Positions 1,261 to 56,241 of a DNA stretch of 64,000 nucleotides are shown here, piece after piece. Made by a program: the position numbers and the translations under genes. How positions within the stretch are numbered: position 1 is the first letter of the stretch; every line of letters starts with the position of its first letter. The notes below the pieces were generated by a model. That model worked only from the letters and a program-made list of their open reading frames with translations, was not told the origin of the DNA and did no database searches. The DNA is from Nocardioides mesophilus (lineage in GTDB: Bacteria > Actinomycetota > Actinomycetes > Propionibacteriales > Nocardioidaceae). The stretch spans positions 1,144,501 to 1,208,500 of the forward strand of contig NZ_CP060713.1 in assembly GCF_014395785.1 (NCBI RefSeq), read 5' to 3'.

Positions 1261-2274
1261 GTGTCGAGACGCGCCCGAGAGATCGCCAGGTGCGCCGCGG
1301 TGGTCCTCGCCGTGCTCCCGGTCGCGCTCGCCGGCTGCTCGGCCACCTCTCCCGAGGCCTCGGCCACCGACCAGCTCCGGATCATGGTGCCGAACGCGGC
1401 CGGCGGCGGCTACGACACCACCGCCCGCACCGTGGCCGTGGTGCTCGAGCAGGAGGGCATCACCGAGCGCCCGGAGATCTTCAACCTCGAGGGCGGCAGC
1501 GGCGGCGTCGGTCTGGCCCGCACCGTCCACGAGCGCGGCAACCCCGACCTGCTGATGATGATGGGCCTGGGGGTGGTCGGAAGCGTGCACACCAACGACA
1601 TCGCCGCCGACCTGGACCAGGTCACGCCTGTCGCCCGCCTGCTCAGCGAGCCGGAGGTCGTGCTGGTCCGGACCACCTCGGAGCACCGGGGCCTGCGGTC
1701 GCTGGTGCGGGCCTGGCGCGAGGACCCCGGCAGCATCGTGGTGGGCGGCGGCTCGCTGGCCGGTGGCCCGGACCACCTCGCCACCCACCTGCTCGCCCAG
1801 GCGGTGAGGATCGACCCCCGCAAGGTGCGCTACCGGCAGTACGACGGCGGCGGGCCGCTCCTCGCCGCGCTCTTCACCGGCCGGGTGGACGTGGCTGTCT
1901 CCGGGGTGCTGGAGAACATCGAGCAGGTCCGCGCCGGCGCGGTCCGGGTGCTCGCGGTGACCGGCGAGCACCGGGTGCCCGGCGTCGAGGCCCCGACGCT
2001 GCAGGAGGCCGGGGTGCCGCTGGAGTTCGCCAACTGGCGCGGGTTCGTCGCGCCGCCGGGACTGACGCCGCGCGAGCGGGCCCGGCTGGTCTCGATCGTC
2101 ACCCGCATGCACGACTCGCCGTCGTGGCGCGAGGCCGAGCAGGCCAACGGCTGGACCGACGCCTTCCTGACCGGGCACGCCTTCGGCTCCTTCCTCGACG
2201 AGGAGAGCGCACGGGTGCGCGAGCTGCTCGCCCGGCTCGGGATGGAGCCGGGCGAGCAGCAGGTCACGCCTTGA
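1261..2274 (+). CDS. TctC-like tricarboxylate-binding lipoprotein (orphan paralogue)
   Basis: Extracytoplasmic solute-binding protein of the tripartite tricarboxylate transporter family, 337 aa, close to the usual length. The N-terminus has Arg residues, a hydrophobic stretch and the lipobox LAGC, so it should be a lipoprotein. The family pattern MVPNAAGGGYDTTAR is present near residue 45, with the Gly-rich ligand loop after it. It is transcribed divergently from the sensor kinase and converges on uspA with an 11-nt overlap. A second TctC lies at 4876-5895 in a full tctCBA operon. This copy may be an extra binding subunit or a periplasmic partner of the sensor kinase, a role known for some TctC/BugE-type proteins. 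The ligand is unknown. Confidence 0.88.
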   Translation: MSRRAREIARCAAVVLAVLPVALAGCSATSPEASATDQLRIMVPNAAGGGYDTTARTVAVVLEQEGITERPEIFNLEGGSGGVGLARTVHERGNPDLLMMMGLGVVGSVHTNDIAADLDQVTPVARLLSEPEVVLVRTTSEHRGLRSLVRAWREDPGSIVVGGGSLAGGPDHLATHLLAQAVRIDPRKVRYRQYDGGGPLLAALFTGRVDVAVSGVLENIEQVRAGAVRVLAVTGEHRVPGVEAPTLQEAGVPLEFANWRGFVAPPGLTPRERARLVSIVTRMHDSPSWREAEQANGWTDAFLTGHAFGSFLDEESARVRELLARLGMEPGEQQVTP

Positions 2275-54828: not shown

Positions 54829-56241
54829 CTAGGCACCGGCCTGGTCGTCGAGGAGCAGCCGGGCCAGCCGCTCCAGGTCGGGGGTGAGGTCCTGCTCGCC
54901 GAGCTGCACCTCGGCGCCGTCGACCCCGAACCCGTAGACGAAGCGGTCCGGCTGCGGCACAGACGTGCTCACGCCGCGCAGGTCGATCCGCTCCAGCAGC
55001 CGCTCCACCTCCGGGGTGCGCGGGTCGTCGCCGAGCCGGATCTCGGCCTCCTGCCGGATGCCGGCGAAGCCGCCGCTGCGCGTGACCACCACCCGCTGCA
55101 CCCCCGCACCCGGGACGCGACCTGCACCGCCGCCCTCCCCCGGCCCGGCAGGCCCGGCAGGCCCGGCAGGCCCGGCAGGCCCAGTGGGTCCCCCGGGCGC
55201 ACCGGCTCCGCGCGGGCCCACCGGCACCGGCCCGGCCACCGGCACCCCCACCGCCTGCCAGGCCTGGACGACCGCGTCGCGGGCCGACGGCGGGCCGATC
55301 CCGGCCGCGGCGGCCACCGTCGCCTCGGCGAAGCCGGCGAAGTCGGTCCGGGGGCCGACCCCCGAGGTGAGCGCGGCGTACCAGATCCGGCCCGGGAGCT
55401 CCCACGCCGCGCCGCCGATCGCGGTCGCGGCGAGGTGGAAGGCCCGGTTGGGGATGCCGGAGTTCAGGTGCACGCCGCCGTTGTCCTCCTCGGTCTGCAC
55501 GTAGTCGGCCATCGACCCCACCTGCGGGTCCCGGCCGAGCACCGGGTCGTCGTAGGCGGTGCCGGGCTCCGCCATCGACCGCAGCGCCCGCCCCCGGACC
55601 GCCGGCAGGAAGATGCCCGCACCGATCAGCCAGTCCGCCTCGGCGGCGCTCTGCCCGAGCAGCCGCTGCTTGAGGCAGGCGGCGAACACGTCGGAGATCG
55701 ACTCGTTGAGCGCGCCGGACTGGCCGGCGTACTCGAAGCCGGAGGTGTGCTGGGTCACCGCGTGGGTGAACTCGTGGCCGAGCACGTCCACCGGCTTGGT
55801 GAACCGGTCGAAGACGCGGCCGTCGCCGTCGCCGAGCACCAGCTGGGTGCCGTCCCAGAAGGCGTTGTCGTAGTCGCGCCCGTAGTGCACGCTCGCCAGC
55901 ACCGGCGCTCCGCGGCCGTCGTACGACGAGCGCCCGAACGCCTCGGCGAACAGCGCCAGGGAGCCCTCCACCCCGACGAACGCCTCGTCGACCGCCGGGT
56001 CCCCCACCGGCGCCGACCCGGCCGCGCGCGCCAGCGGACCGGGCAGCGTGGTGCCGCCACCGGCGTCGTGCACCGCGAAGGCGCCGTCGGGCGGCAGGGC
56101 GGCCGGCCGCGCCGCGCGCCGGTCCCGCAGCTCCCGGTCCACCGCCAGCGTGGTTCGGCAGCACCCGGACACCGCCGCGTCAGGGTGCGCGGCGGCGACC
56201 CGCTCGAGCAGGTAGGGCGGCACGAAGGTGCAAGTGGTCAT
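54829..56241 (-). CDS. M4 (protealysin-like) metalloprotease with collagen-like linker and C-terminal emfourin-like domain
   Basis: 470 aa. A short N-terminal protealysin-type propeptide (FVPPYLLERVAAAHP) is followed by the M4 catalytic domain: Zn site GHEFTHAVTQ (His 156, His 160), third ligand in GALNESISDVFA (Glu 180) and the catalytic His in NGGVHLNSGIPNRAF (His 258). No signal peptide is seen, as in protealysins. A Gly-Pro-Ala repeat linker (about 349-368, DNA 9-mer repeat 55142-55177) leads to an about 85-aa C-terminal domain starting VVVTRSGGFAGIRQEAEI. That domain resembles emfourin-type inhibitors of protealysin, normally a separate gene. Single gene. Confidence 0.88.
   Translation of the reverse strand: MTTCTFVPPYLLERVAAAHPDAAVSGCCRTTLAVDRELRDRRAARPAALPPDGAFAVHDAGGGTTLPGPLARAAGSAPVGDPAVDEAFVGVEGSLALFAEAFGRSSYDGRGAPVLASVHYGRDYDNAFWDGTQLVLGDGDGRVFDRFTKPVDVLGHEFTHAVTQHTSGFEYAGQSGALNESISDVFAACLKQRLLGQSAAEADWLIGAGIFLPAVRGRALRSMAEPGTAYDDPVLGRDPQVGSMADYVQTEEDNGGVHLNSGIPNRAFHLAATAIGGAAWELPGRIWYAALTSGVGPRTDFAGFAEATVAAAAGIGPPSARDAVVQAWQAVGVPVAGPVPVGPRGAGAPGGPTGPAGPAGPAGPAGPGEGGGAGRVPGAGVQRVVVTRSGGFAGIRQEAEIRLGDDPRTPEVERLLERIDLRGVSTSVPQPDRFVYGFGVDGAEVQLGEQDLTPDLERLARLLLDDQAGA
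55142..55177. repeat. Four tandem 9-bp repeats coding the Gly-Pro-Ala linker
   Basis: GGCCCGGCA is repeated four times within the protease gene. It encodes consecutive Gly-Pro-Ala triplets. Slippage here could vary the linker length in steps of three residues. Confidence 0.9.

Follow-up and report, generated by a model that had tools for sequence, protein, structure and literature searches.

A protealysin-like M4 protease carrying an emfourin-family domain on the same chain in Nocardioides mesophilus and its relatives, with predicted self-inhibition

The fused gene and the two halves of its product

The analysed stretch, called the window below, comprises 64,000 nucleotides of Nocardioides mesophilus DNA (contig NZ_CP060713.1), and a single open reading frame on its minus strand encodes a thermolysin-type protease, a linker and an emfourin-family domain. 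The following features were located.

54829..56241, minus strand: fused M4 protease-emfourin gene, 470 aa; the ATG ends at 56241, the stop codon occupies 54829-54831
56092..56241, minus strand: propeptide region (approximately residues 1-50) containing the motif FVPPYLLER; approximate boundary, from alignment to the protealysin precursor 2vqx
55243..56091, minus strand: M4 (thermolysin-type) catalytic domain, about residues 51-333; PF01447 and PF02868, pLDDT and the 2vqx match
55762..55776, minus strand: HEFTH zinc-binding motif, residues 156-160; conserved among the fused proteins
55099..55242, minus strand: Gly/Pro/Ala-rich linker, residues 334-381, disordered by its low pLDDT; length and sequence vary among relatives
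55142..55182, minus strand: perfect 9-bp tandem repeat, 4.6 copies, encoding Gly-Pro-Ala; unique among the fused proteins
54844..55098, minus strand: emfourin-family domain, residues 382-466; PF20242 above the cut-off, profile match to 6zyg
55069..55074, minus strand: Gly390-Gly391 (RSGGFAG loop); both glycines conserved in all 200 distinct domains
54946..54948, minus strand: Asp432 (PDRF loop), proposed to bind zinc; conserved in all 200 distinct domains

On the 470-aa product Pfam placed Peptidase_M4 (PF01447) at residues 84-164, Peptidase_M4_C (PF02868) at 167-333 and Emfourin (PF20242) at 386-462, all above the cut-off. The initial annotation had described a complete M4 protease joined on one chain to an emfourin-like domain, and both statements were borne out: the two protease matches are accompanied by HEFTH at 156-160, Glu180 and His258, and both parts lie in one reading frame with Pfam and profile matches. 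The AlphaFold2 model of the full-length protein, built on an alignment of 50 fused proteins, reached a pLDDT of 88 with two confident domains; its pTM of 0.78 slightly exceeds the approximately 0.75 expected with the emfourin domain unplaced, a weak indication resting on our own rough estimate.

The closest solved structure to the window protein by sequence is that of the protealysin precursor (2vqx; residues 2-333, E 4.7e-96), and since the alignment extends over these residues, the propeptide region is present. The predicted structure of the M4 domain agreed with 2vqx (TMt 0.94), with pLDDT above 90 in most blocks. The Pfam FTP propeptide had no match in the window protein and was present in the three other M4 enzymes of the genome. 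PLN_propep matched 8 of 50 fused proteins at E 0.01, the window protein not being among them, in rows that began at the start of the M4 match. No signal peptide could be seen in the window protein by inspection. Judged from sequence and model, the enzyme is classed as a protealysin-like M4 protease in which a short protealysin-type propeptide replaces the FTP/PepSY prosequence. The residues H156, E157, H160, E180 and H258 were identical in all 50 fused proteins of the alignment A2, and HExxH was kept in all 93 distinct fused proteins found. Since the catalytic residues are intact, an active enzyme would be there to control.

The Emfourin match of residues 386-462 scored 33.7 bits against a cut-off of 27 (E 5e-8), and at E 0.01 this family was matched in 48 of 50 fused proteins, the window's included. 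When a profile of 38 family members was compared with the PDB, one chain was found, 6zyg, the emfourin of Serratia proteamaculans (E 6.8e-11), and the Asp432 column of the window domain aligned with an Asp of this protein. Modelled alone, the domain reached a pLDDT of 91.2. Foldseek placed 6zyg first with a probability of 1.00, but with weak numbers (E 9.3e-3, TM 0.53, rmsd 7.5 Å), and in a second structure comparison 6zyg (which we take to be an NMR model) had a Z of 4.8 and ranked eleventh, behind Mago proteins (Z up to 6.9). Thus the previously noted likeness to emfourin is supported by the sequence profiles and modestly by the predicted structure; the assignment is carried by sequence, the structure being consistent with it. 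The domain had been placed at residues 381-466; its emfourin-like character stands, while the boundaries were corrected to about 382-466. The predicted domain was also approximately as similar to SSI-type inhibitors, including sermetstatin (Z 4.4-5.0), as to 6zyg, which may perhaps reflect a mere common arrangement.

The Gly-Gly pair and the Asp were present in every emfourin domain, 93 fused and 107 others, all of them gathered with a family profile, which favours typical members. The only invariant domain positions in the 50 fused proteins of A2 were G390, G391, G394, D432 and Y436; among the non-fused domains Gly394 and Tyr436 were each found in 89 of 103. An Asp of emfourin presumably binds the zinc, hence the role proposed for Asp432. 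A 2023 NMR paper in J Biol Chem reportedly described two binding loops of emfourin, one with an Asp on the zinc and the other with hydrophobic residues, and the conserved positions fit such a two-loop arrangement. Together with the Serratia emfourin data given below, the conserved residues suggest that the fused domain would inhibit its own protease, most likely within the chain. The presence of a few emfourin-family domains with no M4 found within 1.5 kb (L034, L038, L039) would agree with a domain that no longer inhibits its protease and serves instead as a binding or folding module or blocks the proteases of other cells; the full conservation of the presumed inhibitory residues in all 93 fused domains speaks against such a change of function, which we regard as highly improbable.

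Fused and separate forms among relatives

The window's genome yielded a single emfourin, both by Pfam (16 of 16 candidates scored) and by the more sensitive family alignment, in which 150 of 263 candidates were scored with E up to 1, and no emfourin was found with the three other M4 enzymes, which are of the FTP-propeptide type. Within the genus, an emfourin domain was detected in 7 of 7 genomes by family alignment and in 6 of 7 by Pfam; the fused domains of G004 and G005 were recovered by the former search and overlooked by the latter. Five genomes (G000, G001, G002, G004 and G005) carry the fused form. For G003, the protease (L133) and the emfourin domain (L008) sit at the ends of contigs and appear to be parts of a single interrupted gene. 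A separate pair belonging to a different M4 branch is all that G006 has; G005 carries such a pair besides the fused form.

For the window's family, 197 genomes were sampled, and 104 of them gave at least 108 close M4 matches (E ≤ 1e-60), a lower bound since at most eight candidates per genome were scored in this sample. The 108 places divide into 78 fused genes, 26 with a separate neighbouring emfourin and four with M4 alone. These four consist of the contig break L133 and three second copies (L223-L225) in genomes that also have the fused one; no emfourin was present in the stretch fetched around the second copies. Since neither L223-L225 nor the three FTP-propeptide enzymes are accompanied by emfourin, the M4 enzymes here do not all need one. 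In one genus of the family (g2) the pair was separate in 19 of 19 matches. The fusion had been called an unusual design, which cannot be upheld: among the close M4 matches of the family it is the commonest form (78/108).

The best 80 of 391 relatives, taken as named loci, comprised 23 fused, 54 separate and three without emfourin in the stretch; two of them coincide with loci of the family set (L042 = L140, L043 = L142, both Nocardioidaceae). Among these 80 no fused form occurred in the Streptomyces, Micrococcaceae, Microbacteriaceae, Pseudomonas and Sphingomonas rows. The fused form was found in Nocardioidaceae, Propionibacteriaceae, Intrasporangiaceae (Terrabacter, Knoellia, Humibacillus, Nostocoides, Janibacter and Intrasporangium) and one Antribacter. 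Pfam searches under-count the domain: the phylum search, with up to 12 candidates scored per genome, missed that of the window itself. In all, 93 distinct single-chain M4-emfourin proteins were found, hence an artefact or chance fusion could be rejected. The M4-emfourin fusion extends to dozens of related species rather than being confined to this genome.

Some loci departed from these arrangements. In L195 (G578), from the mostly fused genus g243, the protease and emfourin are in different frames within about 10 nt, possibly a split or a sequencing error. L034 encodes at 1318-1743(+) a protein of approximately 140 aa with a lipoprotein-like start, by inspection, and an emfourin domain above the cut-off, with no M4 in the 3.2 kb locus. 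In the genus g5, L038 (1066-1776, minus) and L039 (1069-1779, minus) encode proteins of about 237 aa with an N-terminal emfourin just above the cut-off and a C-terminal half to which no domain could be assigned; no M4 was found in the 3.3 kb loci.

Gene order, internal starts and the origin of the fusion

Elsewhere than in the window's family, protease and inhibitor are usually encoded by neighbouring genes. Of 102 loci with separate reading frames, a few duplicates included (e.g. L028/L087), 100 have the protease gene ahead of the emfourin gene on a common strand. The two exceptions are L068 and L115, where emfourin either precedes the M4 gene or is encoded on the other strand. The distance from the protease stop to the first codon of the emfourin domain has a median of 32.5 nt and does not exceed 60 nt in 84 of 100 pairs. 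Since the order of the separate genes is that of the fusion, loss of a stop codon or a frameshift suffices to join them. The fusion would have arisen from neighbouring genes, protease first and inhibitor second, with the inhibitor left without an ATG start of its own.

In the interval from codon -30 to codon -4 ahead of the Gly-Gly loop, none of the 93 fused genes had an ATG, against 85 of 107 others; these others include L008, which is half of a truncated fused gene, and L034, with no M4 nearby. Met is entirely absent from the linkers of the fused proteins, hence part of this signal may come from linker composition. Start codons of the GTG or TTG type with a Shine-Dalgarno-like match of at least four bases preceded the domain in 13 of 50 fused genes; the corresponding figure for the others, ATG included, was 42 of 103. 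In the window gene no start codon with such a match was present before the emfourin domain. The missing ATG argues against internal translation as a source of free emfourin, although GTG/TTG starts leave some room, and since GTG codons are common before the domain, some free inhibitor could be made from fused genes.

In quick trees the fused state was strongly clustered and needed three label changes. An AU test did not reject an origin in one group, the constrained tree being 12.4 log units better (p 0.69), and a single origin of the fusion is therefore possible on these alignments. The separate pair L169 stood beside the fused L061 in the AU-test tree, which could represent a split or a second fusion. 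The first tree left out L003-L005 (other M4), L035 (a fragment), six duplicates and five loci without an M4 match. The rows of the AU-test tree were 50 fused proteins, 37 of the 80 adjacent ones and L080, picked by hand, and 20 further rows; L080, in which no emfourin was found, was counted as two-gene, and 13 named rows were excluded, namely L133 and those with long or distant branches.

The linker, predicted self-inhibition and its meaning

The window linker had a pLDDT below 50 at residues 347-360 and 362-378. From Val333 to the Gly-Gly loop the linkers of the 93 fused proteins span 11-89 residues (median 26; window 56). They share no common sequence, and their 2044 residues are composed of about 21% Gly, 20% Ala, 19% Pro, 9% Thr and 9% Ser. 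The Gly-Pro-Ala repeat was present in one of the 93 proteins, the window's own, which points to a repeat that expanded locally within a flexible linker of otherwise ordinary kind. A functional collagen-like stalk was ruled out by this restriction and by the fact that the collagen-like part has six Gly-X-Y triplets only. An 89-residue tether rich in VPGG, an elastin-like repeat different from that of the window, was observed in the fused protein L176 (G559); repeat expansion has thus occurred elsewhere too, with no common motif. Of the flexible, repeat-variable tether described earlier, flexibility and variation in length (11-89, between species) were confirmed, while the Gly-Pro-Ala repeat is incidental. 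Flexibility appears to be maintained while sequence and length drift.

It is probable that the window protein is a self-inhibited protease locked at both ends, by its propeptide and by emfourin, the inhibition being predicted. The N-terminal propeptide would keep the enzyme off until maturation, and the tethered emfourin would then bind the active-site cleft through the Gly-Gly loop and Asp432. A specific inhibitor of protealysin-type M4 enzymes would have become the C-terminal domain of the protease. With the inhibitor on the same chain, the ratio would always be 1:1 and the local inhibitor concentration very high, hence activity would be expected only when the linker is cleaved or the emfourin domain is displaced or degraded.

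The shortest linkers, of 11-12 residues from Val333 to the Gly-Gly loop, stand against this, since such tethers may be too short for the domain to reach its own chain's active site. They occur in 3 of 93 fused proteins, and in the window model about eight residues before the loop form the first strand of the domain. Both points would suit inhibition of the neighbouring chain, between two copies of the protein; most linkers are longer, though, and nothing points to dimers, and we consider this arrangement unlikely.

The composition of the linkers bears on a further reading, in which the linker is cut after synthesis into a separate protease and free emfourin and the fusion ensures only that equal amounts are made. 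M4 enzymes prefer large hydrophobic residues, and L, I, M, F, Y and W together make up about 2% of the linker residues against 19-20% in both domains, a single comparison in which the domains serve as the reference; disordered linkers are generally poor in such residues. The near absence of favoured residues speaks against cutting by an M4 enzyme, while another protease could cut the linker, which in the window protein is predicted to be disordered, and free emfourin works in Serratia according to PMC9505478. Processing of this kind seems distinctly unlikely to us, and inhibition within the chain is retained as the preferred reading.

Thermolysin-family proteases and the protealysin precursor carry an inhibitory propeptide on the same chain as the enzyme; the window protein differs in adding, beyond the propeptide, a folded inhibitor of a separate family at the C-terminus. 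The protealysin-emfourin (M4in) system of S. proteamaculans has the same protease subgroup (2vqx is the best match) and the same inhibitor family (6zyg). In Serratia the two are encoded by two genes in one operon, as stated in PMC9505478, whereas the window locus has one reading frame with no separate inhibitor gene, the inhibitor being without an ATG start. The two-gene pairs of Streptomyces, Arthrobacter, Pseudomonas, Sphingomonas and the genus g2 likewise have both parts, in separate reading frames. According to the same paper (PMC9505478), the Serratia emfourin attaches to the active-site region of protealysin in a 1:1 ratio, and when it is deleted, extracts cleave more actin and viable counts fall; the paper proposes emfourin as an immunity protein for protealysin acting as an antibacterial effector.

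The fusion is real, conserved and well assigned, yet it is clade-wide and built of known parts. No published account of it was found by a search that did not extend to the 2021 and 2023 emfourin papers, and the fusion may already be in print. Emfourin has been discussed as a lead for inhibitors of M4 enzymes.

The fused form bears on a question in the literature, whether emfourin is an immunity protein, as proposed in PMC9505478, or a brake on the cell's own enzyme. We suggest tentatively, with slightly less than even confidence, that throughout a clade of Actinomycetota protealysin and emfourin now form an obligate zymogen with a double lock, each chain inhibiting itself, which would contradict an immunity role unless the linker is cleaved. 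If this is true, a carried inhibitor could not spare the producer and yet expose the target, and so could not serve as an immunity protein; either the toxin-immunity role of emfourin would be wrong in this clade, or linker cleavage on delivery would be needed. Since a permanently attached inhibitor is ill-suited to immunity unless the linker is cut on delivery, the arrangement would suit self-control of the enzyme. The fusion is a natural experiment on a protease and a protein inhibitor joined for good, and a test case for off/on control in which linker lengths from 11 to 89 among relatives would permit a direct test of reach and effective concentration.
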